From NCBI GenBank assembly GCA_950295325.1, contig OX485809.1, forward strand, positions 6,696,001 to 6,760,000: a stretch of DNA of 64,000 nucleotides, written 5' to 3'. Numbering within the stretch: the stretch's first letter is position 1; each line of letters opens with the position of its first letter. The notes under the pieces are model-generated. The model was not told the DNA's origin. It saw only the letters and a list, made by a program, of their open reading frames with translations, and did no database searches. The translations under genes and the position numbers were made by a program. Below are positions 16,293-37,314 of this stretch, in pieces. Source of the stretch: Polytrichum commune (Eukaryota > Streptophyta > Polytrichopsida > Polytrichales > Polytrichaceae).

Positions 16293-19148
16293 CTATAAAC
16301 TCTCGTGTTGTGCCTGGTAACAGGATTCCGGGCACATCCACTTGTTTCCGCAGGAGGTGCAGAACCACTTTTGCAGACGGCCACAGATCACACATCCTCG
16401 CTTTAATTTGGACCGCCGTAGTGTGTGGACTGGGTGATGGTGTCGAGGTCTAGGCACAAGAGGGACTTGCTGTCTTTGGCGGGCCTCTATTGCCTCTGTA
16501 GCAAGGTACTTCCCGACAGCGATCTTGAAGGCGAGGTGCGAGGTGACAGGCAATCCGAGGACCTCCATTTGCTTCGCCCAAGTGACATAGGCGTTCACCA
16601 TCGTCTGGTCCACGATGAGATGAAAAATCTTCACCCACCACTTGTGGCAGCGAAGCTGCGACGAATAGTTGCCACGGAGTTGATCCGTCACATCGACTCC
16701 GCGCATGTACTCGACGTACTGCCGGTGCATGGGAGACGATGGCACCACCAACTGGCCTTGAAGGCCGGGTATTCGTCGAAGCACTTTATTGTTCGGCTCC
16801 CAGGGTGCAGCCGCAGTGCTCAGCAATGTCACCAACTTCTTGTCTTGCCAAGAAACAACGCCCATCTGTCGATGGACGTGATTCCAGATTATCATGGATC
16901 CCCTTACGGCGGTGTCAGGATCCCGGTAGAGTCCAGAGGGCAGATTTTTGCTGGTGCGGCGCACGGTGCCTGTGGCCCATATCCCCTTGCACATGAGCTC
17001 ATGAAAGAGGTTCACACTTGCAAAAAAATTATCGATCACCAAACAGTGGCCCCGGTTTTCAAGACCCTTCACCATCCGTTCAACCACGTGGTAGCCCAAC
17101 CCGTGAGGGCCCGCCCCTGTTCCCTCACCAAAATACACCTCCATCTGCCAGACAAACCTGCTCTTCGAGCTCGCCAACAACCAAACCTTAATCCCAAACC
17201 TTACAGGCTTATCCGGCATGAATTGCCTAATGAAACAGTAACGCCCTTTGTAGGGGATGACACACTCATCAACTGTTATCTCCCTCTCCAAATTATAAAT
17301 TTCCTTTGAAACGTTTACAAACATTTCAACGAGCCATCTTGTCTTGGCAATCCGATCAAACAACGGGTCAGACACATCTCTCACTATACTGTTGTTATCC
17401 ACTAGATGCAAGCAACGCATGATCTGCTCCCACCTCTCTAGCGTCATGATGGATGAGATAAGCGGACAATACAGGAAAGGTTGGCTACGCATCCAATACT
17501 GCCTCACGCTTGGGAGACGTTTGCAACCCATGAGGATACAAATTCCCAACCACCCCCGAATGTCGGATCGATTCACATCCTTCCACAGCCGTCCACCCTT
17601 TGTGCGTGGCAACTCATTCTCCACGGGATTCAGAACTGCCCTTGCATACCTGTTGGTCTCAAGCACAATTCGATCTACAACGGCATCAGTCCAGTACAAA
17701 TCAAACACCGTATGTGGCTGAGGAATTCCTTGCGCTCTAGGGGACTTCAAACCTGGCGTAGGTCCCGTGAAGTTATCACGGGTTCTAACAAAGTCGACGC
17801 TTGTGGAGTTCCAGGATTCCTTCCTATAGTATACAGCAAGCTGGTCACTATCCATGTGGACGGGCGTGAAAGAATCCGGTGTCATGCACCACCGTTCTAG
17901 GCCAGGCGCAGAGGGCCCACTTTCATCTAAATTATCGACATCAAATTCTGATCCCGAGCTCTCCAAGGTATCACAGAAGTCGGGGAGCCACTCCTCGCCA
18001 CTAGAGTCCTCCAACACCATCCCGTTTTCCGCTGAACCGCTGGAGTGTACAGAAGTGTTAGAACAGAGCATGTATTCTGGCAGCCCTATACTCACCTTAG
18101 GAAAAGTGTCCCTGGCAGTCGAGTCATGCGTACCATCGACCCCCTCAGTATCGGAGGGGGCATCGTAGTCTGCAATGGGGCAGCCTTGTGGTTGACTGGG
18201 TATCACTTGCGCTTCGATGTTTTCAGCCACCTGCTCCGTTAGGCCAGGGCCGTTGCCACTCCCCACTCCGCTTGCAGAACCGCCTAAAAGCTCTGTGGCA
18301 CTCCCCACTCCGCTCGCAGAGCCCCCTAAAAGCTCCGTGGCACTCACTCCCGCGGCTGCCCCACCATAAACACCCGCAGAGTCAGGTGCAGGGCTGAAGT
18401 AGTGCTGCCTCTTCCACCAGCCGTAGCCGTGACCCCCTTCACTACCATAAGCGCGAACATGCGGCCCATCTGCAACTCTCACGCTCTCCTCGTTTAGGTG
18501 GCACTCCATGTCCGATCCCCCTAGGTCGCACAACACCATCCTCTTCCCAGTCGCGGCATGCACACCTTCCCCGATGACATCCCCTTGCGTCCAAGATGGT
18601 GTGTCGCCAGTGTGGAACGAAAGCTCGGATATAAACCTATTTGGGACAAGAACAGCCCACCCTGCCCGCCTGGAACTCCAATGCACATACGTCCCTTGGA
18701 AACGGTCCGGCATAACACCGACCTCGAGAAGCACCGGCCTCTCCAAGGATCCGCCTGGGTGTGTAGCTCCAAAGCCCGTGTGCTTCGAAATAGGGGCTGC
18801 TGACCTCCAAGCGTCGTCGCGGAACACATACTCCCAAAGGTCGATATTTACGGTATCCATGCTGCCAACGGAATGTTGCCCTTCAGGCGCCACAAAGTCT
18901 TCAAGGCCCTCAAACCCACCATAACTCGCCAACACCTCGCAGATCGCGTCGTCGTTCAGCACTTGCTGCTCATACATCGCCACTGTCCTTGCCAAAGCTC
19001 GCGTTCGAACACCGTCGGTGAGGTTAGGCTGGGGTGTTGGCGGCAACCATGCGCGCGGCCTCCTCGGCTTGGAGCGCAACAACTTCCCTTTCTCCTCCTT
19101 TGTGCATCTTCCACTTGGAGCCCGCTGTCCACCTGTGCAGCGACGCAA
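16293..19148 (-). CDS. piggyBac-type transposase (DDE_Tnp_1_7), intact 951-codon ORF
   Basis: Cut-and-paste transposase of the piggyBac superfamily, acting in the nucleus on TTAA-flanked ends. The DDE_Tnp_1_7 core is plain. The catalytic aspartates sit in ITVDECVIPYKGR (about residue 625), LVIDNFFAS (about 705) and MRGVDVTDQLRG (about 818 and 821). The spacings of about 80, 113 and 3 residues resemble the D-D-D(D) pattern of insect piggyBac. The C-terminus is a cysteine-rich zinc-binding domain (CVICGRLQKWFCTSCGNKW, then CPESC). The N-terminal ~430 residues are an unrecognised extension, with a duplicated ELLGGSASGVGS repeat near residues 265-290 and an acidic stretch near 380-410. That makes the protein longer than typical ~600-residue members. 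There are no stops or frameshifts, so it may be active. The start could be a later Met, since the first ~58 residues look low-complexity. It lies in the same orientation as the captured gene downstream of it. Confidence 0.93.
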   Translation of the reverse strand: MRRCTGGQRAPSGRCTKEEKGKLLRSKPRRPRAWLPPTPQPNLTDGVRTRALARTVAMYEQQVLNDDAICEVLASYGGFEGLEDFVAPEGQHSVGSMDTVNIDLWEYVFRDDAWRSAAPISKHTGFGATHPGGSLERPVLLEVGVMPDRFQGTYVHWSSRRAGWAVLVPNRFISELSFHTGDTPSWTQGDVIGEGVHAATGKRMVLCDLGGSDMECHLNEESVRVADGPHVRAYGSEGGHGYGWWKRQHYFSPAPDSAGVYGGAAAGVSATELLGGSASGVGSATELLGGSASGVGSGNGPGLTEQVAENIEAQVIPSQPQGCPIADYDAPSDTEGVDGTHDSTARDTFPKVSIGLPEYMLCSNTSVHSSGSAENGMVLEDSSGEEWLPDFCDTLESSGSEFDVDNLDESGPSAPGLERWCMTPDSFTPVHMDSDQLAVYYRKESWNSTSVDFVRTRDNFTGPTPGLKSPRAQGIPQPHTVFDLYWTDAVVDRIVLETNRYARAVLNPVENELPRTKGGRLWKDVNRSDIRGWLGICILMGCKRLPSVRQYWMRSQPFLYCPLISSIMTLERWEQIMRCLHLVDNNSIVRDVSDPLFDRIAKTRWLVEMFVNVSKEIYNLEREITVDECVIPYKGRYCFIRQFMPDKPVRFGIKVWLLASSKSRFVWQMEVYFGEGTGAGPHGLGYHVVERMVKGLENRGHCLVIDNFFASVNLFHELMCKGIWATGTVRRTSKNLPSGLYRDPDTAVRGSMIIWNHVHRQMGVVSWQDKKLVTLLSTAAAPWEPNNKVLRRIPGLQGQLVVPSSPMHRQYVEYMRGVDVTDQLRGNYSSQLRCHKWWVKIFHLIVDQTMVNAYVTWAKQMEVLGLPVTSHLAFKIAVGKYLATEAIEARQRQQVPLVPRPRHHHPVHTLRRSKLKRGCVICGRLQKWFCTSCGNKWMCPESCYQAQHESL

Positions 19149-19681: not shown

Positions 19682-19693
19682 CCGAAGCTGCAT
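19682..19693 (+). repeat. Target site duplication of the MULE, left copy
   Basis: CCGAAGCTGCAT, repeated at 37303-37314. Confidence 0.85.
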
Positions 19694-19704
19694 GGACGAC
19701 ACTC

Positions 19705-19733
19705 GTATGTGAGCGTAGAGCGGAGAGCGGAGA
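19705..19733 (+). repeat. MULE left terminal inverted repeat core
   Basis: 29 bp identical in inverse to 37265-37293. It begins GTATGTGAGCG and is followed by GAGAGCGG-type short repeats. Confidence 0.92.
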
Positions 19734-20191
19734 GCGTAGAGGAAATAAAAATAGTAAACTTGTCAGACTAAAATTAGGATATTTCAAAATAGCCAAGAAT
19801 ATACCAAGAATATTCTAGAATCTGACAATAATAGTAAAAAATGGACCTATTTCCGTGGGATGTATAGGTCATAAAATAAAATAAAAACCCTGAATTTGAA
19901 ATGGTCTCATTAAGTTTGGAAACCGTGAGGTGGTTGAATTATTAAAACCAATGATGACTACAAGAAAAAATCAATGAAAATGGATTTTTTGAGATTGGTA
20001 TAATTGAAGAATGAGTCAATCAAAATACAAAGGAATCAAAATAATAAACTTGCTTGGTTTTTATTCATCACTTTTCTCTTTGTCTTATATGTGAGTCTAT
20101 TCTATAGCTTAGACTTTAGCAATTATCGTTTGTGGCCGAATAGATTATAAATTGGACTCATACCCAACATCATTGTATATACAGTTGCACA

Positions 20192-20658
20192 ATGGGAGAT
20201 GAGAGAGACATGTTTGCTGGATTAGGATGGGATAAGGAAATTAGAAGTCTAACAGATCCTCATATTCCGGTTAATCCATCGCCGGAATTTGAGTTTGTTG
20301 CTGGAAATCGAAGTAGTGATGACTATGAGCTGACTTCATTTTCGCAGTCTACACAAGTATGGAGGTAGAGGGTGCGGGAGGAGCAAAAAAAATATGAGAA
20401 AAAGAAAAAAGGCAGGAAGATGTGCCGGAGAAGGATGCTGATTTGGATGAAGACAAATCGAACGAAACGGAGGAGGAGGTGAAGGTGGAAGGGGAATCTT
20501 CGAAGTTTCTTTCATTTCGCAAACGGATAAGAGGAATGACGCCGCATCATCTTCCGCTAAAGGATCAAAAGAGAGATAAGACAGTTTCTTATATGGATTT
20601 GCTTGGACCGGGTCCACCTCCCTCACAATCATCTAAGAAGTATGCAAAACGAAAATAG
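20192..20658 (+). CDS. Small element-encoded protein, 135 aa, two exons
   Basis: Proposed exons are 20192-20356 and 20416-20658, around a 59-bp GT-AG intron with a purine-rich body; phases agree. The product starts MGDERDMFAGLGWDKE, has an acidic middle (EKDADLDEDKSNETEEEV) and ends in a lysine/arginine-rich tail (SSKKYAKRK). I do not recognise a family. It is the first gene inside the left end of the MULE and converges with the transposase gene, ending 161 bp from the transposase stop. Its position and basic C-terminus suggest a nuclear accessory protein of the element, but no function can be assigned. Confidence 0.55.
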
Positions 20659-20819
20659 AGTTGATAGACATAAGAAGCATTGTAATACAAAATTTTGAAG
20701 CAAATAAAATTAATCATTGAGATTATACCTTTATTATATCAATCAATTATTGCTTCACAAGAGGTCCAGAAATGGATACATATATCATAGCCCAAAGTAC
20801 TGCTAGGCTGAGATAAATC

Positions 20820-23800
20820 CTAAGAAGTAGACTTTGTCAAAAGACCCCCTTCGAGGATGAGTTTGACTTCGTTGAAGCTAAATGTCGGGGCGTGAATAAA
20901 CAAATTCACTTCCGCATCCAAATTAGAAACCTTGATGAAAATGTAATACAAATGCTTACAATTCAGATAAGAATTTCGTTTGCGGCTGAACTTGGAAATC
21001 ATATCCAAGAAGTATGCGCAGTTGCACTCTGGAAGAGAACTGACTGTCACTTGGTAGATCGGTGGTTGGGGTTCTGATTTGGACTGCAGTGTGATAATGC
21101 AACCAAATCCCGGTTGAGGGATCATAGTTAACTTCAGAACGGTACCATGCACAGCTTCAGCAGAGGCCACCATCTGCCTCTGCTTTGCCGAAGGTGCGCT
21201 GCTGGATCGCCGAACAAGCTTGGACAATATTGTCGGAGGGATCATGTCGGGGTTTTCTGGAACACGGATTCCAGACATATCCAGCTGGGGAGCAGAGTTG
21301 GTGAAGAGTTGAGTCGGTGTGATGCGCTCCTTTGGTGGGAGTTGAAAACCTGCATTCTCAAGGGCGAAGATCTCCGAGCGGGTGAGGTTGGTACCAATCT
21401 TCACGGGCCAGATTGGGGGAATAGGAGGCTTCTGGTCATCAGCAGAGAACTGCATGACCCATTTCCGACGAGGGCCCTTCACGCAACGCTCAATGTCGTC
21501 TGGGCAAAAGACAAAGTCCGTGCGCTTCATAGATTGGAGTTTGTAATGATGCCACATACCGGTGTAGGTCGGCGCAGGGACGCTCTTATTATTAGTGACG
21601 ATTCTTGCGGTGCACTTCTTCTTCGTGCCCGCATGATTAACCCAACAAGACTTCCCAGACGTATAGGGTATGCGGGCAATATGCCAAAGAGAGGCATCTA
21701 CTTTGGTTTCTTGCACGGCAGTGACACGTTGGAAACCAAGTCCTGCAGGTGAAGGCACTTGAACCTCTTGTACAGAGGGGGAAGACTCCTCAATGATAGT
21801 GGGTAGTGTTTCTGGTTGAGATCGAGTGACACGCTTACCGGGGGGAGGGCGAGAGAAGTTCACGGTATCGGGGCGGTGGGTCTCGCCATCATCACCAATT
21901 GGAGTGTCTGGTCTTCGCTTCTGCGATCCAAACACCTCGGCGCCCTCAAGGTGTGGATCGCGAGTGCAAAATTCTTCCCCACCGGACATGTCAAGCAAGA
22001 CCTTCTGCAACACTGTGGGATCGCCAGTACGCTGAGCTCGACGTTGAGCACCCCTGAGCTTTAGTTCTTCTTTGCTTGGACCATCTCCGCCAATTCCACC
22101 TTTAAGGAACTGGTAGTATGCAACAACTTGTAAGAAGGCGTGAATGTAGTCGTCAACCGTAGCCACGTATAGATCTCCACCCTTGTTGCCGGAGGCTTGA
22201 AGCCACTTGTTGTGGACGGACTCCGCAAGATTGCACGACGGCATCTCGGCCAATTGGTCTTGGGTTAAAACCTTTTCCTGATTGGAGAAATCAAGTATTA
22301 ATATAAATGTACAGAGAGAGGAAATCGAATCCAAGAAAAACCAATAATGAATTATAAAGGAGATGTACCAGTTCCATGAAACCACCCCATTGAAGGTAGC
22401 GGAAGTGCCAAAAAGCAAGCCAGAGCTGAAGATGCTTGAGACCGTCCTCACTTGTACAATTCGATGACGCCCACCAAGCCTTGATAGCTAGGTACCTAGT
22501 CTCAGCCTCTTCCATAGATGACGCATTTCGATATTGAAGGCAAAGATGTCTATGTTGGTCTTGTAACTCATGCTTTATATACGATTTCGTATGTTTTTCG
22601 AGCGATTGTTTCCAATGGAAAAAACAAGTGCGCTCACGACCCTCCATTGGAACTTTGGGATCCCCTGAACCATACACAATGCGAACATCGTTCCAATTGG
22701 CTTGGGCACTGTCCGCCATGAAGCCTATAAAGTTTGGATGTGGGATACCGTGTCGGGCCATGACGTGGTTGAGGTTCTGCCAGAAGAGAACTTGGGCATC
22801 CTTATCCTCCAATTGGAAATCACAACATGAAATGGTCATGACCCGTTGATAAGTCCCATCGTACACATGAGCGGCCATGGTGGTCCACCCTTTGACCCGC
22901 TTCACGTGATCGGACATCATCCACGCGTTCTCCAGGTCCCCACCCGGTTGCATCCGACGAACCAAATCCACTCCACTTCCAGGACCAACCTCCGACATCT
23001 TGAAGACGAACACCTTGTCTGTATCGTCACCTTGTCCTGGGAATTGGTTCCGTTGGACGTAGGCCCAATTGCTAACGCCTCGGAGCTTCGCGATGCCATC
23101 CATAACACCAAACCTCCGCAAATATTTGAAAGAGGTAACCTTAGAGCGAAGGTTTGGGGAATTCAACTCTCTACAGCTCTCAAAAACAGGTTCAAGCTCT
23201 TTTAAAGAGAAGAGACGGTGTGTGTCATTATCGCCAGAAAGGAGAAACTCACCAACAATGTCCTTGCTAGCTTCAAGGACGATCTTGCTGTGGGTGGCTT
23301 GAGGCGTACGTTCAACGTGCTCCTCAAGAAGTGCGTTGATACGTTTCCGACTGTCTCTGCAGTCTCCAACCTTCACTGGATGTTGATGAGAACCGAGATG
23401 AATGCAGGCTCTTTGGGATGACTCCTTCCCATGGACGTAGAAGATTTTGGCCTCGCATAGTGCAATGCATTTGGGAGGCTCTTTACAAATCCTGCAGACA
23501 AGAGTAGATCCGGATGGCACAATGCCAGAGAGAGGGAAAGGATCTTTAGTGAAACCTTCAAATTCTGTGTCATTGACCTTAGAGGTACGATGGGCGCGTT
23601 GAAGGTAATCACAACTCGGGTTTTGGCATTGGAGATGGCCAACACAGGTAGAGGAACGAAATGCAAGGCCAACGTCGTTTGTAATGTTGGTGGTTTGAGT
23701 CTTAGTCCAAACATGGCCATCATATTGCTTGTCCATGCCGTCCAACGACTTGGCCCTGGTTTGAGATGAAGAGACTTCTGCTGCAGGGAGGACAAATAAC

Positions 23801-24480
23801 TGGGTGCCATCGAAACGAGGGGGAAGGTGAATTTTGATTTTATCGTAATCTATTTTCTTGAGGACGTTCTTACTACCGGGCATAGAGCCAAGACGACGAA
23901 GACATTGAACAATAGTTTGAGGAGGTTTAGATGTAGGGACCGAAGTAGTTGAAGGGACAGAGCTAGATGGAGAAGGCGTTACGTAGGATGCAAAGGGAAA
24001 CAAATGAGGGGAATCATGGACAACAGCCTTATGCACTGGTACATCTTCACTCGAAGAATCAGACAAGTCTATAACGTTGTCTACACCAGGCTCGGTCTTG
24101 ACGCTTATTACCGGGGGTGTGCTAAAGGCAACAGTGGATGATCGAAGAGGAGGAAGGATTTCTGTTGACACTCCCATCTGAGAATCTGGCCAGCCACAAA
24201 CCCTATACTTTCCCGCGCCAAGCTCCCACACTACATTGCCATTGTCAGTTACCTTGGAGGTCTCATGGAAGGTATGAACGAGCAATCCAGTATCAGGATG
24301 GTAGATCTCACGCTCTACACATATTGTACTAGCTTTCAAAGAGAACCTAATGCTAAGATGAAGCTCTGAGACAACAACAATACCTTGTGCACCAATGGGG
24401 AATATAATAGGGACCCCGATGCCATGTGAACGAAGTTCGGCCATCTCAGAGACGGGAGGAAGAATTGAGGTGGAAGCCAT
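20820..24480 (-). CDS. MULE-type transposase with SWIM zinc finger, 1189 aa, two exons
   Basis: Exon 1 is 24480-22369 and exon 2 is 22277-20820. The 91-bp GT-AG intron joins in phase and there are no stops. The Met of MASTSILPPVSEMAEL is chosen; an in-frame Met lies 13 codons upstream. A cysteine cluster (HLQCQNPSCDYLQRAH, then CRICKEPPKC..C) at about residues 278-340 resembles FLYWCH/GCM-type DNA-binding fingers. The MULE catalytic domain follows: YDGTYQRVMTI (first Asp about 540), GFMADSAQANW (second Asp about 590), the TCFFHWKQSL motif (about 620), and the Glu in CNLAESVHNKW (about 720). A SWIM finger (ECNCAYF..NCKHLYY) lies near 1120-1148. This is the classical Mutator-like arrangement, which cuts the element's ends and integrates it with a duplication of roughly 9 bp. 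It is divergent from the gene at 24800. Confidence 0.88.
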
Positions 24481-24799
24481 GAAGGCAGAGAAAGCAAACG
24501 TGAAGGAACAAAGATGCAAAGATGCATAGAGAAGGAGAATGGTGATGATGATGAAGTTATAAACAAATACGCATGAATATCAGGAAGGAGACAAAATTGT
24601 CAGGCATCCTAAAAAAAGATACCCCTAATTACAAAGATGGTTGTCAGATAGTAAAGCGCGCCTCCCATCGGGAGGTATTGCAATTATATACTGAGAAGAA
24701 TGCGATTGCTCACTTTCTTTCCAATGTGTGAGTTTGATGTGGTGAGGTTGTGGAAAGGAAATAGAGCGAATAGGTCTGAATTGCGGGAGGGTTGAACAC
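24481..24799. promoter_or_regulatory. Putative bidirectional promoter of the MULE genes
   Basis: A 319-bp gap between the divergent starts of the transposase (minus) and the basic protein gene (plus). I see no clear TATA or operator motif; the call rests on gene orientation only. Confidence 0.45.
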
Positions 24800-25799
24800 A
24801 TGAAGGAAATAGGCAATTCACAACCTCCGACAACGGAACCATCTAAGAAAAAGAAGAGGAGGCGATCGTCTACACATTACACTGATAAGAAGAGAAAGAC
24901 AGTGAGGACACAAAAGTCACAGGCAAGGAAAGCGCCAATCGAGGGCCGTGGGACGCCCGAGGATTTGAGCCAAAGCATAAAGGACCTGCGGAAACCTTCG
25001 TGGAGGCTAGACTGTGGGATTCGGCCTTTTCATTTATCACCGATTGTAGAAGAGGCGGACGGAAGTAAAGCGCAACCAATGGCAGAAGTGGAGGAGTTGG
25101 GAAACGACAGCATCCAAGAGGACTCACGCGAAGAGACAAACTCTACAAGTGTCGTACGTATTCTTCGGGTTCTCCATATATTCAGTTGTTTGAGCACATA
25201 ATAAAAATGGTAGAACATATTCAACTGTGAAACAACTTTTCTTTTAGATATTATGGTTTGTCATCATTGTTATAAACATTGTTTTATCTTAAATATAGGA
25301 AGAAGGGGGGAGTGGAGATAGTGGAAATATCTACGAAGAAGACAACAAGGAGGTAGCACAACAAATTGAGAAGGCGTTAGAAGAGCGAGAACCGATGTCG
25401 GGACAACCAACGATTCAAGCAAGAGAAAAAATGAAGGCGTCCAAGAGGAAAGCGGCAAAGGAAGATCTGAAATCAAATTTGTTGGGAGGCCGCGAAAGAG
25501 CTGAAGGAGGAGACCCATGCGCAGAAACTCTAAGTGTGGATGTTGTGACCCCTGCTTCAAGATTTCAGCGAAGCAAGGCGGGCGGAACACAACAAACATC
25601 AAGGCGAGGGCGTGGCCGCGGGAGAGGAATGGCACAAGTAAACCTCGGAGATTCGAGAAGCACTCCAATAACGCCGACAGAGGACGGGACCTCGGAAGAT
25701 AGTGGCGCCAATATAGGGGCTTTAGTGGAGGGCATACTCCAAATTCTGGTAAGGTGTCGGGATCTCGGCCAAGCTATGTTCGCCAACGTTTTTGCTTAA
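24800..25799 (+). CDS. Basic, Arg/Gly-rich element-encoded protein, 284 aa, two exons
   Basis: Exons 24800-25153 and 25299-25799 join in phase across a GT-AG intron. The N-terminus carries a strong nuclear-localisation-like stretch (PSKKKKRRRSSTHYTDKKRK, about residues 15-34). A conserved-looking patch follows (SWRLDCGIRPFHLSPI), then an acidic segment, and then an RG-rich tract (RRGRGRGRGMA, about residues 223-233). The C-terminal 20 residues look helical. I do not recognise a family. By position it is a second regulatory or accessory protein of the MULE; accessory genes of autonomous Mutator elements are known (MURB, VANC), but no sequence similarity is claimed. The satellite begins 200 bp downstream. 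Confidence 0.6.
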
Positions 25800-25996
25800 T
25801 TTCTATCACCTTGATTTCTCATAGTATTTGGAATATCAGCTTGACTTGCTTTCGGCCTTGTCCTGATTTAGGTTTAGGAACATGTCAGGAAAGGTATGTT
25901 TGTGCTTGAAAAATCAAAAGGTTATGTGCACATCATGTTGCTCTCGGCCTTGTCTCATTCTGTGTAGTGCACAAGAATGAGCTAGGGGAAGAGGCC

Positions 25997-26320
25997 TCGG
26001 ATCCGAGGCCTCATATTTGTGTAAGTTTGAGTATGTGAAAGGTAGGGTTTTGAGAGAGGCGAGGTTCTTGATTTCTCAAACAAATGGAATGTCGACTTTC
26101 TTGCTTTCTTGATTCCTTGCTCTCAGCCATTTCTTCTATTGTGTAGTGCATAAGTGGGAGGCATAGGAAGAGGCCTAGGATCCGAGGCCTCTTATTTGTG
26201 GGTAGGTTTGTGCTTGAAAAATCAAAATGTTATGTGCACATCAATTGCTCTCGGCCTTGTCTTGTTTTGTGTAGTGCATAAGAAAGAGCTAGGGGAAGAG
26301 GCCTCGGATCCGAGGCCTCA
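25997..26320. repeat. Palindrome satellite, left flank (long-period type)
   Basis: Three copies of the 22-bp palindrome (half-site GAGGCCTCGGA plus its inverse) near 25999, 26171 and 26299. They are set in a linker containing 'ctcggccttgtc' and 'tagtgcataag'. The linker differs from that of the main array but matches the right flank at 30590-31945. Confidence 0.85.
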
Positions 26321-26441
26321 TATTTGTGTAAGTTTGAGTATGTGAGAGGTAGGGTTTTGAGAGAGGTGAGGTTCTTGATTTCTCAAACTAATGGAATGTC
26401 AACTTTCTTCCATTTTTGATTCCTTGCTCTCTGCCTTGTGC

Positions 26442-26492
26442 CCCACGGGTGAACGCCCGTAGGCCATGTAACAAGTAACTTGGTTAGGCATG
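26442..26492 (+). repeat. Sub-repeat with ACGGGTGAACACCCGT-type palindrome, copy 1
   Basis: 'acgggtgaacgcccgt' followed by 'ggccatgtaacaagtaactt'. Copies 2 and 3 lie at about 30811-30860 and 31204-31252. The three bracket the main satellite on both sides. Confidence 0.8.
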
Positions 26493-26529
26493 TCTTTATG
26501 AGGCACTTTGGTTGGTTCTAAGTATGTAA

Positions 26530-29500
26530 ACTAGTTTGTGTGTGAGGCCTCGGATCCCAGGCCTCTCGGCTGAGGCCACTTGAGGTTTTTTGATTCAAAG
26601 TATAACTTGTATGAATGAGGCACTTTGCTTGTTTTTGAGGATGTAAACTAGTTTGTGAATGAGGCCTCGGATCAGAGGCCTCTTTTATGTGTTCCAAAAC
26701 AAGTGTACGGAAGAGGCACTTTGGTTTGTTTTGAGTATGTAAACTAGTTTGTGAATGAGGCCTCGGATCCGAGGCCTCTTTTATGTGTTCCAAAACATGT
26801 GTACGGATGAGGCACTTTGGTTTGTTTTGAGTATGTAAACTAGTTTGTGAATGAGGCCTCGGATCCGAGGCCTCTTTTATGTGTTCCAAAACATGTGTAC
26901 GGATGAGGCACTTTGGTTTGTTTTGAGTATGTAAACTAGTTTGTGAATGAGGCCTCGGATCCGAGGCCTCTTTTATGTGTTCCAAAACATGTGTACGGAT
27001 GAGGCACTTTGGTTTGTTTTGAGGATGTAAACTAGTTTGTGAATGAGGCCTCGGATTCGAGGCCTCTTTTATGTGTTCCAAAACATGTGTACGGAAGAGG
27101 CACTTTGGTTTGTTTTGAGTATGTAAACTAGTTTGTGAATGAGGCCTCGGATCCGAGGCCTCTTTTATGTGTTCCAAAACATGTGTATGGATGAGGCACT
27201 TTGGTTTGTTTTGAGTATGTAAACTAGTTTATGAATGACGCCTCGGATCCGAGGCCTCTTTTATGTGTTCCAAAACATGTGTACGGATGAGGCACTTTGG
27301 TTTGTTTTGAGGATGTAAACTAGTTTGTGAATGAGGCCTCGGATCCGAGGCCTCTTTTATGTGTTCCAAAACATGTGTACGGATGAGGCACTTTGGTTTG
27401 TTTTCAGGATGTAAACTAGTTTGTGAATGAGGCCTCGGATCCGAGGCCTCTTTTATGTGTTCCAAAACATGTGTACGGATGAGGCACTTTGGTTTGTTTT
27501 GAGGATGTAAACTAGTTTGTGAATGAGGCCTCGGATCAGAGGCCTCTTTTATGTGTTCCAAAACAAGTGTACGGAAGAGGCACTTTGGTTTGTTTTGAGT
27601 ATGTAAACTAGTTTGTGAATGAGGCCTCGGATCCGAGGCCTCTTTTATGTGTTCCAAAACATGTGTACGGATGAGGCACTTTGGTTTGTTTTAAGGATGT
27701 AAACTAGTTTGTGAATGAGGCCTCGGATCCGAGGCCTCTTTTATGTGTTCCAAAACATGTGTACGGATGAGGCACTTTGGTTTGTTTTGAGTATGTAAAC
27801 TAGTTTGTGAATGAGGCCTCGGATCCGAGGCCTCTTTTATGTGTTCCAAAACATGTGTACGGATGAGGCACTTTGGTTTGTTTTGAGTCTGTAAAGTAGT
27901 TTATGAATGAGGCCTCGGATCCGAGGCCTCTTTCATGTGTTCCAAAACATGTGTACGGATGAGGCACTTTGGTTTGTTTTGAGTATGTAAACTAGTTTGT
28001 GAATGAGGCCTCGGATCCGAGGCCTCTTTTATGTGTTCCAAAACATGTGTACGCATGAGGCACTTTGGTTTGTTTTGAGTATGTAAACTAGTTTGTGAAT
28101 GAGGCCTCGGATCCGAGGCCTCTTTTATGTGTTCCAAAACATGTGTACGGATGAGGCACTTTGGTTTGTTTTGAGTATGTAAACTAGTTTATGAATGAGG
28201 CCTCGGATCCGAGCCCTCTTTTATGTGTTCCAAAACATGTGTACAGATGAGGCACTTTGGTTGGTTTTGAGTATGTAAAGTAGTTTGTGAATGAGGCCTT
28301 GGATCCGAGTCCTCTTTTATGTGTTCCAACACAAGTGTACGGATGAGGCACTTTGGTTTGTTTTAAGGATGTAAACTAGTTTGTGAATGAGGCCTCGGAT
28401 CTGAGGCCTCTTTTATGTGTTCCAAAACATGTGTACGGATGAGGCACTTTGGTTTGTTTTGAGTATGTAAACTAGTTTGTGAATGAGGCCTCGGATCCGA
28501 GGCCTCTTTTATGTGTTCCAAAACATGTGTACAGATGAGGCACTTTGGTTGGTTTTGAGTATGTAAAGTAGTTTGTGAATGAGGCCTTGGATCCGAGGCC
28601 TCTTTTATGTGTTCCAAAACATGTGTACGGATGAGGCACTTTGGTTTGTTTTGAGGATGTAAACTAGTTTGTGAATGAGGACTCGGATCCGAGGCCTCTT
28701 TTATGTGTTCCAAAACATGTGTACGGATGAGGCACTTTGGTTTGTTTTGAGTATGTAAACTAGTTTGTGAATGAGGCCTCGGATCCGAGGCCTCTTTTAT
28801 GTGTTCCAAAACATGTGTACAGATGAGGCACTTTGGTTGGTTTTGAGTATGTAAAGTAGTTTGTGAATGAGGCCTTGGATCCGAGGCCTCTTTTATGTGT
28901 TCCAAAACATGTGTACGGATGAGGCACTTTGGTTTGTTTTGAGGATGTAAACTAGTTTGTGAATGAGGCCTCGGATCCGAGGCCTCTTTTATGTGTTCCA
29001 AAACATGTGTACGGATGAGGCACTTTGGTTTGTTTTGAGTATGTAAACTAGTTTGTGAATGAGGCCTCGGATCCGAGGCCTCTTTTATGTGTTCCAAAAC
29101 ATGTGTACGGATGAGGCACTTTGGTTTGTTTTGAGTATGTAAAGTAGTTTATGAATGAGGCCTTGGATTCGAGGCCTCTTTTATGTGTTCCAAAACATGT
29201 GTACGGATGAGGCACTTTGGTTTGTTTTGAGGATGTAAACTAGTTTGTGAATGAGGCCTCGGATCCGAGGCCTCTTTTATGTGTTCCAAAACATGTGTAC
29301 GGATGAGGCACTTTGGTTTGTTTTGAGGATGTAAACTAGTTTGTGAATGAGGCCTCGGATCCGAGGCCTCTTTTATGTGTTCCAAAACATGTGTACGGAT
29401 GAGGCACTTTGGTTTGTTTTGAATATGTAAAGTAGTTTGTGAATGAGGCCTCGGATCCGAGGCCTCTTTTATGTGTTCCAAAACATGTGTGCGGATGAGG

Positions 29501-30350
29501 CACTTTGGTTTGTTTTGAGGATGTAAACTAGTTTGTGAATGAGGTTTCGGATCCGAGGCCTCTTTTATGTGTTCCAAAACATGTGTACGGATGAGGCACT
29601 TTGGTTTGTTTTGAGTATGTAAACTAGTTTGTGAATGAGGCCTCGGATCCGAGGCCTCTTTTATGTGTTCCAAAACATGTGTACGGATGAGGCACTTTGG
29701 TTTGTTTTGAATATGTAAAGTAGTTTGTGAATGAGGCCTCGGATCCGAGGCTTTTTTTATGTGTTCCAAAACATGTGTACGGATGAGGCACTTTGGTTTG
29801 TTTTGAGGATGTAAACTAGTTTGTGAATGAGGCCTCGGATCCGAGGCCTCTTTTATGTGTTCCAAAACATGTGTACGGATGAGGCACTTTGGTTTGTTTT
29901 GAGGATGTAAACTAGTTTGTGAATGAGGCCTCGGATCCGAGGCCTCTTTTATGTGTTCCAAAACATGTGTACGGATGAGGCACTTTGGTTTGTTTTGAGT
30001 ATGTAAACTAGTTTGTGAATGAGGCCTCGGATCCGAGGCCTCTTTTATGTGTTCCAAAACATGTGTACGGATGAGGCACTTTGGTTTGTTTTGAATATGT
30101 AAAGTAGTTTGTGAATGAGGCCTCGGATCCGAGGCTTTTTTTATGTGTTCCAAAACATGTGTACGGATGAGGCACTTTGGTTTGTTTTGAGTATGTAAAG
30201 TAGTTTGTGAATGAGGCCTCGGATCCGAGGCCTCTCAGCCGAGGCCACTTGAGGTTTTTTGATTCAACGTATAGCTTGTATGAATGAGGCACTTTGCTTG
30301 TTTTTGAGTATGTAAACTAGTTTCAAAATGAGGCCTCGGATCCGAGGCCT
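26530..30350. repeat. 96-bp satellite array, about 40 monomers, each with a 22-bp palindrome
   Basis: The monomer is 96 bp, and consecutive palindromes sit exactly 96 bp apart from about 26757 to 30213. Each contains half-site GAGGCCTCGGA plus its inverse (StuI and BamHI words inside), 'gtgttccaaaacatgtgtac', and 'gatgaggcactttggtttg'. Most palindromes are perfect. Variation in the linker reveals higher-order units of three monomers (288 bp; e.g. variants at about 28243, 28532, 28820). Because 96 is divisible by three, the minus strand stays open for up to 334 codons as a 32-residue repeat (EHIKEASDPRPHS...). I treat this as a by-product, not a gene. Confidence 0.97.
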
Positions 30351-30589
30351 CCTTTTAGTGCCCTCGATCAGCAGTCCCCAGGGAGTGGCTCCCGGGACTA
30401 CGAATGTTTAAACAGGCATAACTTCCTTGATTGTTGCCCAAATGGGGCAAGTGAGGTGTCCATCGGCATCTACATTTCACGTAGATGACGATAGAGTGGT
30501 TGATTGTTAGATTCGGAGACCACACGTGGAAGATATAGAGGTCTGAAGCTGCGGGGGGGGGGATTGTATTTTGTTAACTGCATAAGTAG

Positions 30590-31945
30590 GAGCTTTGGGA
30601 AGAGGCCTCGGATCCGAGGCCTTTTTTTTGTGTCAAGGTTTGTGCTTGAAAAATGAAAATGTTAGGTTCATTTTTGAATTCTCTCGGCCATTTTTTGTAG
30701 TATGTATTTCATAAGGAGGGGCATTCGGAAGAGGCCTCGGATCCGAGGCCTCATTTTTGTGTCAAGGTATGTGCATGAAAAGTTAGGTTTTAACATGATC
30801 AAATGTGTGCACCACGGGTGAACACCCGTGGGCCATGTAACAAGTAACTTGGGTAGGATTTAGCATCATCACGGGGAGATGTCTCCATGTCAAATATTTT
30901 TAAAAATTATGATTTTTTTTCTCTATATTCATAACCATTGATTATACCTTTTGGTTATTTTTTTGAAATTTTTTGTCATCTTCATTTTTCCTAGTAATTG
31001 TTTTAGTTGAATTCTGCGTCATTCTAGGTAGAAATGGTATGTTTTCTAGAAAAATATGATCATCAAATTTGGTCATGATATTTTAGTCCGTAATAGATAT
31101 CATGTATATCTACCTTCCAAAAAAATTTGAGAAAATTTTGACCCATTTTGGTGATGCAACTTGGCAATGGAGTGACCTCCCCTGGAACATCATCAAATGT
31201 GAACCTCACGGGTGAACACCCGTGAGCCATGTAACAAGTAAATTGGTTAGGTTTTAAAATCATCAAGGAGGGGCATTTAGAAGAGGCCTCGGATCCGAGG
31301 CCTCATTTTTGAATCAGGTTGTGTGCTTGAAAAATGAAAATGTTAGGTTCATTTTTGAATTCTCTCGGCCATTTTCTGTAGTATGTATTTCATAAGGAGG
31401 GGCATTCGGAAGAGGCCTCGGATCCGAGGCCTCATTTTTGTGTCAAGGTATGTGCATGAAAAGTTAAAATATTATGCTCATTTTTAAATGCGCTTGGTCC
31501 TATTGTTTTGGGTAGTGCATAAGTAGGTATTTTGTGAAGAGGCCTCGGATCCGAGGCCTCATTTTTGTGTCAAGGTATGTGCTTGAAAAATGAAAATCTT
31601 ATGTTCATTTTCGAATGCTCTCGGCCTTCTTGTTTTGGGTAGTGAATAAGTATGTGTTTTGGGAAGAGGCCTCGGATCCGAGACCTCATGTTTGTATGAA
31701 TTTTATGCTAGAAAAATCTAAATGTTATGTTCGTGTAAGATTGCTCTCGGCCTTCTTGTTTTGGGTACTACATGAGTAAGAGGTTTGTGAAGAGGCCTCG
31801 GATCCGAGGCCTCATTTTGAAGACAATGTATGAGCTTTAAAAGTCAAACTGCTATGTTCACATAAGATTTCTCTCGGCCTTTTTCTTTTGGGTAGTGCAT
31901 AAGGAGGAGGTAGGAAAAGAGGCCTCGGATCCGAGGCCTCTCATT
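30590..31945. repeat. 126-130-bp palindrome satellite, right flank
   Basis: Eight copies of the same 22-bp palindrome at about 30603, 30733, 31284, 31412, 31541, 31667, 31793 and 31919, with a different linker ('gtgcttgaaaaatgaaaatg', 'ctctcggcc', 'ttttgggtagtgcataag'). Two copies of the ACGGGTGAACACCCGT sub-repeat lie between. Outside the palindrome this linker has little in common with the 96-bp array. Confidence 0.92.
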
Positions 31946-32112
31946 CGTAGGTAGGTTTGTGCTAGAGTTTACCACTTGACTTAGCATTCGGCCATTTCCA
32001 TTTGTAGTTTGCTCTCGGCTTTGTATTGTTTTTGTGAGGATTTGTTTCTTTATAGTTACGAAGTTATTGACTTTTCTTTGTGAAATTCTCATTTTCTCCA
32101 TGTTCTTAGGAT

Positions 32113-35100
32113 ATGAACTCTTCACAGGTTGCGCAATCGCAACCCCAATCTGGAGAGGATGTTGTTCTTGCGGCCCCCACGGTTGAAGTTGAAGCTGTGC
32201 AGGTTGAGAGTCTCAATTCGCAGGGCCCATTACAAGTAGAGGTGAGTTGGATAGTTGTTGAGTAATTTGTTGAGCAAGTTTTTTGAGTTCTAGCTTTCTA
32301 AGCATGGTTTTACTATTTGTGTTTTTGTTAGGCTCTCGCAATGAGCGAAGATGCCGTTCAAGTAGTTGCCGACACGGATCCCGTGGTGTGTGAGCTTGAG
32401 CTTCGGAAATCACAAAAGGAGGACTCCATTGGTGTTATCCAACGCCTCCGGATTAAGCCAACCTGTAAGTCCCGCTTATCCATTCCTTTGTGCCGCTTGA
32501 GAGCCCTCCCTCTCGTCCGTCCTATAAGTGAGGTTGAGGTGTAGCGCTTGGAATGTGAATTTGTAATGGGATACCGAGAGGGTGATCGGGTTCTTTACGT
32601 GTCTGTTTTCAACGACGTTCCCGTGGACCTGCCCATTCCCCTTGGCATTATGGCCTCTTGGAGCCCTCTCTGGTAAGAGGCCTCCGCAGAATTTGACGCC
32701 AAGCTCAAGGAGGATCCGGATCTTACACATTTCGCCGGGAAGATGTTCTTCGTCTGGGAATGCAATCATCGTCTCACCGCTTGGTGGAGACACATCAATA
32801 ACCACCACACCGATGACAAGAGTTGGCATATCTCGGTGGATTGCATTGTTGTTGACCCTAGAAGATACACCGGTGTATTTCTCAATGCCATGAGCGACAT
32901 TAATTGGTAAGCTCACTCATTTTTTTTATTCATTTTTCATTTTTGTTTCAATTCTTTTCCATTCTTTTCACCTCACGTTCCTCACATATTTTTTCTCAGG
33001 TCAACCGAGCATGATTATGTCAAGGCAAACATTCCGGCCAAGCTCCTTCGAATCCGCACTTTTGGAAGGTTAGAGTTGTCCACCTTCAAGGATCTCATAT
33101 CGCCATCTGACTACAAAGCATACGAGAAGATAAAGGAGAGTCGTCCAACTTGGTACACATTGACCACGGATGTGTTCGTTAAGTTTCTTTACAAGGTATG
33201 GTTTGTGCATTCAATCATTTAGAGCTTCCAACATAAATAATTTCCATGCCGATTATATGAACTTACAAGATCATTTCTTGCAGAGAGACATTTCGGCTCA
33301 AGCAGACCTTGCAGTGAGGCATTACCGTGAGACCACACCCGTTGCGGAGAGGTCGGCCACTGAGATTTGGAATGTTATGACCAAGGCCCAGGAGAGGACA
33401 ATCAAAAATATTCGGGCCCGTTCTTTTGAGAAGTACATATCCGTTGGACACCCTGACAATGGAGAGGATTTATTTTATGAGGTACTCTTTTGAATTCAAA
33501 TCACTCTTGAACGCAATTCATCCAAATCACTCTTCAACTCTATTACTCTTTTGAACTCAAATCATTTTTATTTTGTGCACAGATTGACCGCCATTTTAAT
33601 GAGTTCTCTTCGACGGACATGACAATTGAAAAATTGCAAAAAATTGTCACATGCCCGGTCGAAGCTTCGTTAAAAGCTAAGTGGCTTTACTGGTGGAACG
33701 CCCCCCTTCGTGAAAGGTTAGATAACAAGTTCCCCGTCGACAAGCCTATGAGGGAGAGGGCTTTGGACGACTGGCTACACAAGGCGTCCTTCTGGGCTCA
33801 GGTAAATCCATTCCTCGGCCTTCTTCATTTTCATTTTCCTCTATTCCATTTATGTCATATCTAATCATCTCCCTCTCTGCAGTTGGAGAAGGAAGTCGCG
33901 GTTGAAATTGAAACCTTAGAGGAGAGCCTCTCCGTCGACATAGATTGGGACGCATCAGAAACTATCTTGCGCCCTCGTGAGTATGTTGATCATTGGCGGA
34001 TTGTCCTTTGGGACAAGGCCTTCAAGCCTTACCTCGGCGATAAGCCTGACATCGCCTTTGTCAAAGGTGATAATCTCTTGGAGTTCGAGGAGGGGGCTCT
34101 CGCTATCAAGCGTGTGGCCTATCAGTAATACATCTATCCTCCACTTTGCACCTCTTCTTAATTTCATTTCTTGCTCGTTTTCTTGGTTTTCTTACATTCT
34201 TGTTTTGTCATGTATGTATATCATGAGAGAATTCGTTGTGAAGAATGCATTGGCCTCATCTTCCTTGCCGGACTACCTCTCGGACTGGGTGAATATTTTT
34301 TCTAGCCTCTGCGTGTACACGACCGCGCAAACAAACAAGTTCTCCGAATTGCACTTGCAAGGTGGTGGATGGTACTTGGATTGTGCTGCAGGATTTGTCC
34401 CCGGGGAAGAGAAGGCTTTGTTTGCTAGCCTTGTGGGTAGTGCTCCGGATGATAACATTGTTACTTTGGATGAGCCTGACATCGTTGAGCTTCCCCCTCC
34501 TCCTTCTAAGGCACCAAGGAGAAAGGGCAGAGCAAAGAAGACCGCCACTCAAGCATCTTCCCAAGTTCTCACTCAGTCTGCTTCTAAGACCCCGGTTGAG
34601 CCACCCACCTTCCCACACAATCCATCTATCGCTCCCTCCGTTGCTCCCTCTCTGGCCCCCTCTGTTACTCCATCTGCATTTCATCCACAATTTCTTACCA
34701 CTCCATCTCACAGTGGCACTTCTCTCCTCTCTTTGCCTCGCAAGAGGAAGGTCGCTCTCTTGGATACTAGTGTCACCTCTTCGGATGCCCCTAACACGCT
34801 TTCCCTCATCGAAAATGTAGACATGGTTCAACTAATGCTGGATTCCGAGGTTGCCGGAGGTCCCCTCCCCGCATATACCCGCATCCAAGAGTTCATTGCC
34901 AAGGTTTGTATATTTGCCTTCGTCAATTCTCAATTTTTTTTCCTTTGCTTTGCTTATTTCTTTCCTTCTTGTTTTCTCATGAAGTTTCAATTGCAGGTTG
35001 GGGCAGGTCGTTCCCGTGTGAATACCTCGACTACAACTCACAAGGGCCTCGATTTGCTCTTCGCCGACATTCCCGAGAATTTGCCGGTGCCAAACATCTC

Positions 35101-36309
35101 CACCGATGTTCCTGCTTGGAACAAGCTCCATGAATCATACTATGAGTGTATTTTTGCATTTGCGAAATCTAACCTCTATGATCATGGTGTCCTTGTTCTT
35201 ACCCATTGTGCAAGTGCCAGTGTTTCTAGGAGTATTTTCGATTGGGCACACACTTATGACTTCTACGTCGCGGAAGATTGGTTTGGAATGAATGATTTGG
35301 ACCTCCAATCTCCCGTTGTTCCCTCTGGAGTGGTAAGCAAGTCTCCCTCTCTTCCCCTTCCGTATTGCTTATCATTTCAATTTCAATTCAATTTCAATTC
35401 AATTTCATTTCAATTCAATTTTATTTTCATTGTTGCAGACTCGGAAGTTCAGCATCAAAGTTCTTGTTCGTGTTAACTCCGTTCTTAGAGTGCGGGAGGA
35501 GGCCATACAAGAGTGTGGTTACAACCTCCAACGAGATGGATGGTTGAATACCTTCACCGATGAGAACAACCAGACGATGCGCAGTGATGGGGTACCTTGG
35601 CGAAGTGCCCATGAGAAGCATCCTATTTTTTTTTCCATCCTTCTCGCTACTCTCACCGACAAGAATGATGTTATTATGGACTGGCAGTGTGGTGTAGGTA
35701 CGCCTTGTTTTTCAACTTCATCCTTACTTTGAATTTTCTATTATTTTTCCTTGACTAGTTTCCATACTAACATTTTACCTCTCGTTGCTTTAGGTGGTTC
35801 GATTACAGCATGTCGCTCCCTTGAGCGGCATATTGTGGCCCTTGAGAGTGACCCCGTCATTTTCAATTCACTCCTACTCCCCATGCGCGATCCCCAGCCT
35901 GCGCGTATATCTCGCTCAGTTACCGCACCGTCTACATCTATCTTTGATCCTCCTCAAAAGATGACCAAGAGGGCATTCGGATTCCTTTGTGTGTAAGTTT
36001 GCTTTCTATATTTTGCCATGTTTGCCTTGATTTCAAATTCTCATTTTCTAGTGTCATCATGTTTCTAATCCTTTTGCTTGGGTGTTTAGAGAGCCAGCGG
36101 AGGTCACAGTCATTCGTCGAGACATGTTTTCAAGTCCTCCAAAGCCGTTTGAGCTTCCCCCGTATGCTAGTGCAATGGCGGATTGTTTTGCGAAGGCGGA
36201 GTCCCCATCTCCTCGCGTTCGTCATTTCTCGCATGGGACACGAAATCTTTTCTTGTTAGAAGCAAATGAGGGTGAGGAGAGTGATAGGGAATGTTCTCCA
36301 AGCCCTTAG
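32113..36309 (+). pseudogene. ParB-like / N6-N4 DNA methyltransferase-like fusion, 11 exons, two in-frame stops
   Basis: Exons: 32113-32241, 32332-32906, 33000-33195, 33284-33481, 33583-33801, 33883-34124, 34228-34903, 34997-35332, 35439-35697, 35794-35992, 36090-36309. All ten GT-AG junctions agree in phase, giving 1082 positions. Residues ~95-240 look like a ParB/sulfiredoxin-fold domain: IPLCRLRALPLVRPISEVEV, then FFVWECNHRLTAWWRHI (compare the G-x-H/R-R motif of ParB; the expected Gly is Cys here), then VDCIVVD. A Pro/Ser-rich basic linker (APRRKGRAKK) is at ~590-640. Residues ~745-965 look like a beta-class DNA methyltransferase: LDLLFADIPENLP at the DPPY position, DHGVLVLTHC, AHEKHPIFFSILL, and DVIMDWQCGVGGSITACRSL followed by ERHIVALESD for the D-x-F-x-G-S/G-G motif. 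In-frame TAG (32542-32544) and TAA (32674-32676) break the ParB-like part. The catalytic DPPY is not canonical. Family assignment is by motif only. Confidence 0.7.
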
Positions 36310-37264
36310 TTTATCATTTTGGTTTTGGAGATAATAACTCCGTTTGTTGTTGTTATCCGGCTTTAATAAAAGTTGTGTGTTGGTTTTATTTTTGATATCC
36401 GGCGCAAGTTTCATTCTTTCTCTCCATTATTTCATATTCATAATGTCAATCCGCATTGCATTCTTTATTTTTTCTTCATCGTTCGGATCTCTTAACTTCT
36501 ATTCACAAAACAATCTAGCTCTCGGCTCTTAGTGTGAGATCTTAGTTATAGGGGGACCATACTTTCTATTAGTGTGGATGGTTTATTTTATGGTTGTGCA
36601 CACTAATCACATTGGCCGTCTTCCAATCCCAATTGTTATATAGCAATTGGAAGTTTTGTTTGGCACGCGAACATAACCTCGTCAAACTTTTTAAATTGAA
36701 CTTCATGTTGTTCTCAAAGAGCCGGCACGTCACCTCAAAAATTTCCAAGAGGATTCTAAGGTTGGACTTGGGGGATTTGTCTTTGAGGTCTTTGGCTAAG
36801 CTAAGGACTGAATTGGAAGGTTGTTATGGTGCGACGGAGTTTTATGGCATGTTCTTTGGATCATTTTACCCATATTGGACATGCCCGGCAGATAGGGTGT
36901 AGATGGCCCTAAACTAGAGTATATAGCTATTTTAACTAACTACCCATTTTTGTAAGTCTTGAGGTTGGCTACATTTTGTTAACCAATAAAATATTTTGTG
37001 TATGGTATTTTGATTTCAATTTGGTGACGTCAGCCTTAATTTAATATGATACATTTGAAAACATATACTATAAGATGTTTGATAACAAATGCAATCTTCC
37101 ACGCCTATAGGATCCGTTGGTTTCTCAAACAATTCTGGGTTATTATGTCCACGGGAATGGGGGTACCTTTCCAAATATAGAATTCAAACTATCTCTAATT
37201 CCACGGAAATAGGCACTGCTTCTCCTAAAATTACCCAACAAAATCTAAATTTTCCGCTCTCCAA
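36310..37264. other. MULE right-end sequence without a supported gene
   Basis: A 102-codon open frame (36594-36902, plus) has no recognisable motif. The remainder is subterminal sequence ahead of the inverted repeat, including the 'ccacggaaatagg' word that matches the left end in inverse. Confidence 0.5.
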
Positions 37265-37293
37265 TCTCCGCTCTCCGCTCTACGCTCACATAC
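37265..37293 (-). repeat. MULE right terminal inverted repeat core
   Basis: 29 bp identical in inverse to 19705-19733. Confidence 0.92.
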
Positions 37294-37302
37294 TTGAGTT
37301 TC

Positions 37303-37314
37303 CCGAAGCTGCAT
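37303..37314 (+). repeat. Target site duplication of the MULE, right copy
   Basis: CCGAAGCTGCAT, same as 19682-19693. Joining the two flanks at one copy restores continuous piggyBac sequence. Confidence 0.85.

Follow-up and report, generated by a model that had tools for sequence, protein, structure and literature searches.

Fusions of a ParB domain (PF02195) with an amino-methyltransferase domain (PF01555) are a feature of phages and bacteria; N6_N4 fusions with ParB are reported to be frequent in phages (PMC12704722), and nicking of DNA has been reported for one ParB-methylase (PMC5512222). The gene considered here lies at positions 32113–36309 of a 64,000-nucleotide stretch (the window) of the moss Polytrichum commune (GenBank assembly GCA_950295325.1, contig OX485809.1, positions 6,696,001 to 6,760,000), where an earlier reading of the sequence alone (the original prediction) had placed a ParB-like domain fused to a methyltransferase-like domain in a plant transposon. 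The moss protein resembles the phage and bacterial fusions in its domain order, its permuted beta-class half and its association with a mobile element. It differs from them in giving no significant ParB match, in carrying mostly D-x-P-acidic instead of the motif DPPY, and in its length of about 1083 amino acids, encoded by 11 exons with long linkers in a eukaryotic DNA transposon. No ParB-methyltransferase of a plant transposon is described in the titles and abstracts listed by searches of open-licence papers. Two ParB-methyltransferase fusions were seen on small contigs of the same assembly, namely L052 (contig C12, 443 amino acids) and L053 (contig C10, 711 amino acids, with an intein-like insertion recognized by eye), and these contigs are probably bacterial contamination; L059 is a further example of such a fusion.

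Three other systems provide points of comparison. In Arabidopsis, VANC21 is reported to bind short motifs that recur in tandem repeats within non-coding regions of VANDAL21 and to remove silencing (PMC5735166), with the motif differing between VANDAL families (PMC5735166; PMC10398659). VANC is likewise an extra gene of a Mutator-type element in which a short motif has been multiplied in tandem repeats of non-coding DNA, whereas the moss motif is a dyad of 22–24 bp and the moss protein has a methyltransferase-like half; the likeness considered here is one of element anatomy. The N4CMT protein of bdelloid rotifers, as described in PMC8885841, combines a chromodomain with a permuted bacterial-type N6_N4_MTase domain, acts as an N4-methylcytosine methyltransferase in Escherichia coli and is linked to transposons and tandem repeats. 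It is thus comparable as a eukaryotic protein with a bacterial-type permuted N6_N4_MTase domain, the moss protein being distinguished by its location in the element itself and by its altered catalytic motif. Among proteins of solved structure, DpnA and CcrM are the best relatives of the C-terminal domain, and in both the catalytic DPPY is intact; ADPPYNL of CcrM aligns with ADIPENL of the moss protein.

The gene and its transposon

The eleven phase-consistent exons of the original prediction are borne out, in that all introns are of the GT..AG type, the phases agree, and the product of the model comprises 1082 amino acids. In a search of the 408-Mb genome (the window sits on a 42-Mb contig), the full 4197 bases were matched at 28 further places with 96–98% identity, besides the window's own. 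A survey of 27 of these places together with the window copy (n = 28) showed that in nine copies the frame is open from the first exon to the eleventh and the splice sites are intact. Two others (L019 and L025) are without stops or frameshifts and have a splice-site change or a 27-nucleotide in-frame deletion, and the remaining 17 are broken, among them the window copy with two in-frame stops in exon 2. As the same model is open in other genomic copies, it is not an artefact or a product of chance. Two damaged copies on C4 (47465022–47468984 and 47574195–47578157) share identical breakpoints in opposite orientation, which suggests a duplicated segment.

Ratios of nonsynonymous to synonymous substitution rates (dN/dS) show clear long-term constraint on the protein between subfamilies. 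The values for L003 against L042 are 0.16 for the whole gene, 0.07 for the ParB-like part and 0.15 for the methyltransferase part, and the latter part gives 0.15 against L039 and 0.10 against L040, for which synonymous sites are saturated (dS 2.5). Comparison of open copies with one another (36 pairs) gives dN/dS values of 0.40 for the whole gene, 0.29 for the ParB-like part and 0.88 for the linker.

Similarity between the copies extends well beyond the gene, beginning at GGACGACACTCGTATGTGAGCG (19694) and ending at ...CATACTTGAGTTTCCC (37304). An exact 10-bp target duplication is found in the window copy and in 12 of 15 other copies tested; in L012 it matches at nine of ten bases, and for L018 and L010 there is no match at the left end paired with them. 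The left end was counted at 165 places in the genome, and 26 of 29 gene copies have one 7.7–29.3 kb upstream on the same strand (27 left ends picked by eye among 100 listed), the pairing being one of proximity only outside the duplication-tested pairs. Given the terminal repeats and the exact 10-bp duplication, the element is a 17.6-kb DNA transposon that was recently mobile, in agreement with the location originally proposed for the gene.

Mutator-like elements have target duplications of 8–11 bp, typically 9, and long terminal repeats. Because both the 10-bp duplication and the long terminal repeats fit this description, the element is probably of the Mutator type; the two minus-strand frames of its probable transposase gene, scanned separately, gave no Pfam transposase match that would confirm the superfamily.

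The two domains of the protein

All the motifs quoted in the original prediction are present: SIPLCRLRALPL at 32479–32514, NHRLTAWW at 32764–32787, ADIPENLP at 35063–35086, HEKHP at 35610–35624 and DWQCGVGG at 35679–35798. The whole window protein has no Pfam N6_N4_Mtase match, and isolated domains of the window family remain under the Pfam cut-off (E 0.092 and 0.037 for two versions, none for a third). Other matches of the window protein are weak, namely DpnA (E 0.009), a PHROG methyltransferase (E 0.0019) and, among 23 phage records, a Cronobacter phage methylase (E 8e-4), and a plasmid search with the domain gave one match at E 0.9. A Pfam search of the genome recovered N6_N4_Mtase at 118 places at E up to 10, of which five are above the cut-off, three on the small contigs C10 and C12 and two on chromosomes. 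One of the latter, L050, contains a 577-amino-acid frame that covers positions 1–216 of the 221-position profile (E 1.1e-7; score 32.4 bits, cut-off 26.7). With 27% identity to the window family and with D-x-P, PWRGAxEK and GxG in common, it is, by sequence, a divergent relative from this genome that likewise has two domains. Further, the combined profile A5 reached DpnA (PDB: 5hek) with E 2.9e-5, and hhalign comparison with seven phage and plasmid enzymes gave E 3.3e-9 over 54 columns. Since divergent relatives give profile matches, the predicted assignment of the C-terminal domain to the permuted N6/N4 (beta class, PF01555) methyltransferase fold is established at the level of sequence profiles.

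The catalytic motif IV of amino-methyltransferases has the form (D/N/S)-P-P-(Y/F/W). In the window family, 27 of 28 copies read DIPE, and the remaining one was unmatched by the search pattern. Among the relatives it is DIPE in L029–L039 (seven of L029–L038 being the same copies as among L001–L028), DVPE in L040, L041 and L076, DIPK in L042 and DLPE in L057, and no aromatic residue occurs in motif IV of L029–L042, L051, L055–L058 or L076. A further family, family B (five copies), has DIPD in four. The aromatic residue is missing in all but one copy in which the motif could be read, mostly with an acidic replacement, and D-x-P-acidic recurs over families down to 27–28% identity, confirming the non-canonical motif noted in the original prediction. 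The glycine motif (motif I), which follows motif IV, is CGVG in 22 of 28 window-family copies, CGIG and YGVG in one each and unmatched by the pattern in four; it is VGTG in all five family-B copies and unmatched in L057 and L076. Ordinary base methylation is doubtful because D-x-P-acidic replaces DPPY in most copies, and the motif pattern suggests that the domain probably has a binding or sensing role. One of these relatives, L076, comes from a contig filed as a Synechococcales (cyanobacterial) metagenome-assembled genome that looks mis-binned; as it carries an interrupted gene of this family, in the eukaryotic manner, its source is probably another plant, perhaps a moss.

In the N-terminal domain, the motif GNHR is found in 25 of 28 window-family copies and CNHR in the window copy, two being unmatched by the pattern. 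In family B, the methyltransferase is preceded by an exon that matches this domain (BLASTP, 30% over 144 amino acids, E 5e-21), and this exon in turn has at least 150 matches in the genome at 36–100% identity (all 150 scored, of 987 candidates). Nine pairs were recognized by eye, among the matches listed, in which such an exon precedes a methyltransferase place, on the same strand, by 5.1–6.3 kb. On these sequence comparisons, the domain is conserved and much expanded in the genome. A protein-kinase-like reading (GRGSYGVVWK, HCDLSFTNI, by eye) was observed at L054:1600–2761, directly upstream of a family-B ParB-like exon.

We consider it moderately probable that this domain belongs to the ParB/sulfiredoxin fold. 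In the ParB fold, GxxR is described as the P motif (PMC12704722), and in a ten-row alignment (A8) GNHR, an upstream VR (R38) and a downstream N (N166) are invariant. A pattern selected once the domain had been seen, [ADE]GxxR[hydrophobic]xA, occurred in 274 of 100,000 shuffles. Two versions of the domain match phrog_1033, "ParB-like partition protein" (E 0.046 and 0.17), and one matches DUF1015 (E 0.19), in each case on the GNHR block, within lists that hold unrelated matches of similar or better score (MSL3 chromodomain-like, 0.0072; an unnamed PHROG, 0.011). A substantial if somewhat lesser chance attaches to a domain specific to plants with a fortuitous GNHR motif, in which case the protein would be a factor derived from a methyltransferase and joined to an N-terminal module of other descent. 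For such an origin speak the lack of a significant ParB match by hmmscan against Pfam, PHROGs and NCBIfam, the hhalign result against eight phage and bacterial ParB N-termini (E 0.46), the absence of ParB among six matches in a PDB profile search, and the four genomic matches of PF02195, all on small contigs outside the element. To these may be added AlphaFold2 predicted local distance difference test (pLDDT) scores of 33.5 (window exon, one sequence) and 34.3 (L076 and window exon, two sequences). A phage search with the ParB-like region reached E 3 at best. Outside the A8 rows the motif itself varies, with GNHP in the L054 copy in addition to CNHR in the window. No relatives were confirmed among viral contigs for A1, A2 or A8, by searches with short patterns that distant relatives may escape. 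Thus, of the N-terminal half of the original prediction, the GNHR motif and the sub-threshold matches stand, the expected ParBc (PF02195) match was obtained in no test, and the profile-profile comparison proposed for it did not reach ParB.

Palindrome arrays and the proposed role

Between the two divergent genes, internal to the element, lies the array of palindromes, and all 40 exact palindrome cores of the window fall inside this non-coding region. In the 13 units outside the 96-bp tandem repeat the palindrome is 98.6% identical to its consensus and the 40-base flanks 72% and 68%, and within the 96-bp array the two differ little (97.3% and 95.5%); the units were selected for similarity to the palindrome, with up to 6 mismatches allowed, and this introduces some bias in its favour. 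All 28 fetched copies have 3–6 exact palindromes each within 7-kb loci. Related arrays occur upstream of exon 6 in L040 (11 cores), L041 (6) and L039 (4). The dyad takes the form GAGGCCTCGG-AT-CCGAGGCCTC in the window, most commonly GACCCTCTCGG-AA-CCGAGAGGGTC in L040 and L041, and CACCCTCTCGG-TT-CCGAGAGGGTG in L039, such that the two other subfamilies keep the CTCGG..CCGAG core and have the arms altered on both sides. A DNA-binding protein that acts as a dimer would require changes of this symmetric kind, the candidate binder being the protein described here, and the altered arms offer a natural series for the study of protein-DNA co-evolution. The 96-bp unit (26608–30235) also has a second palindrome of 10 bp, AAACTAGTTT, with 29 copies in the element.

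Because the anatomy of the element resembles that of VANDAL21, we favour a role for the protein as a binding factor for its own array. Specifically, its most likely role is that of a sequence-specific anti-silencing or transposition-accessory factor comparable to VANC, a proposal which, by analogy, we place just short of an even chance. Under this proposal, the gene would be the second one carried by a large transposon, recently active and probably of the Mutator type. Its product, with an N-terminal domain perhaps built on the ParB/sulfiredoxin fold and a C-terminal permuted amino-methyltransferase fold, would bind as a dimer to the palindromes between the divergent genes. The bound protein would then keep the promoters of the element accessible, or aid the assembly of the transposition complex, in the way that VANC serves VANDAL elements. 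The methyltransferase domain, which retains a glycine motif of the S-adenosylmethionine (AdoMet) type and mostly has an acidic residue for the base-stacking aromatic one, would probably serve for binding or sensing and not as an ordinary base methylase.

Several observations weigh against this proposal. L042, with a full two-domain gene, lacks such a core over the 4.4 kb available, and no 14-mer is repeated four or more times in L042, L054 or L076; L057 and L065 have tandem repeats with leading 14-mers that differ from this dyad, though these stretches may not extend to the array. Conversely, L039–L041 have arrays and show no ParB-like match in about 1.9 kb upstream of exon 6, so that the array may be read by the methyltransferase-like half or by a protein with its gene elsewhere; the transposase or a host factor could also be the binder. 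Among the recent open copies, the methyltransferase part has a dN/dS of 0.92 based on very few changes, so that recent constraint on the C-terminal part finds no support there. Finally, the remaining family-B copy has DIPY, which could be catalytic.

This DIPY copy also bears on the main rival explanation, that of an active DNA amino-methyltransferase which marks the palindromes, perhaps at a central GATC or GGATCC, thereby protecting or labelling the DNA of the element. It would accord with the fold and glycine motif kept under purifying selection between subfamilies, with GGATCC within the window palindrome, and with the bacterial-origin N4-methylcytosine enzyme reported to work in bdelloid rotifers (PMC8885841). 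The absence of an aromatic residue from motif IV in 27 of 28 window-family copies and in the relatives listed above nevertheless disfavours it, as does the centre of the dyad, which in the exact cores listed for L039–L041 is TT or AA and not AT, save for one AG. We therefore regard an active enzyme as decidedly unlikely, and the role in marking or protecting element DNA suggested by the original prediction as less likely than binding, since the aromatic catalytic residue is missing in all but one of the copies read at motif IV. A protein acting in the transposition reaction itself, through end pairing or control of copy number via the array and with no part in silencing, appears improbable: in its favour, the gene and array travel together in the element; against it, the array is situated between the genes and not at the ends.

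It is conceivable, though on balance doubtful, that a plant transposon lineage captured a ParB-methyltransferase of the phage or plasmid type, and that this now serves self-recognition as a dimeric, nucleotide- and AdoMet-sensing protein loading on the element's own parS-like arrays, with protein and palindrome co-diverging among many element families. If true, a bacterial-type two-domain DNA-modification protein has multiplied in a eukaryotic transposon, where it has lost its original catalytic residue to a replacement and brings its palindromic target with it. How transposons evade silencing in plants could then be tested on one known protein and its site, and a second, independent case would be available for comparison with VANC.

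Feature coordinates and neighbouring sequences

Table 1. Features of the transposon and its two-domain gene (window positions)
Feature	Position	Strand	Remarks
Target-site duplication, left copy	19684..19693	.	10 bp, GAAGCTGCAT
Whole DNA transposon	19694..37304	.	17,611 bp; from GGACGACACTCGTATGTGAGCG to ...CATACTTGAGTTTCCC; flanked on either side by the 10-bp duplication
Left terminal inverted repeat arm	19705..19741	+	92% complementary to 37257-37293
Probable transposase gene	20820..24519	-	frames 22291-24519 and 20820-22451; DDE/SWIM-like features by eye
Non-coding palindrome array	25991..31940	.	51 copies (up to 3 mismatches) of 22-bp palindrome GAGGCCTCGGATCCGAGGCCTC; 0 in 100 shuffles
96-bp tandem repeat	26608..30235	+	about 38 copies, one palindrome per unit
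Gene for ParB-like and methyltransferase-like protein	32113..36309	+	11 exons; two in-frame stops in exon 2 of window copy
ParB/sulfiredoxin-like domain (putative)	32413..33195	+	exons 2-3, intron 32907-32999 included; GNHR-type motif (CNHR here) at 32761-32772
Low-complexity linker with basic stretches	34228..34903	+	exon 7, from gene model; dN/dS 0.88 for amino acids 600-745, open copies
Permuted N6/N4 amino-methyltransferase-like domain	34997..35992	+	exons 8-10 with their introns; motifs IV (ADIPEN, from 35063), X-like (HEKHP, from 35610) and I (CGVGGS, from 35688); profile matches
Right terminal inverted repeat arm	37257..37293	-	pairs with 19705-19741
Target-site duplication, right copy	37305..37314	.	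10 bp

Within the element, small open stretches at 20190–20660 and 24800–25799 (plus strand) are possible exons of further element genes. Just outside it, on the minus strand at 16293–19148, a 951-amino-acid open frame contains a piggyBac-type DDE_Tnp_1_7 domain (E 8.1e-72).

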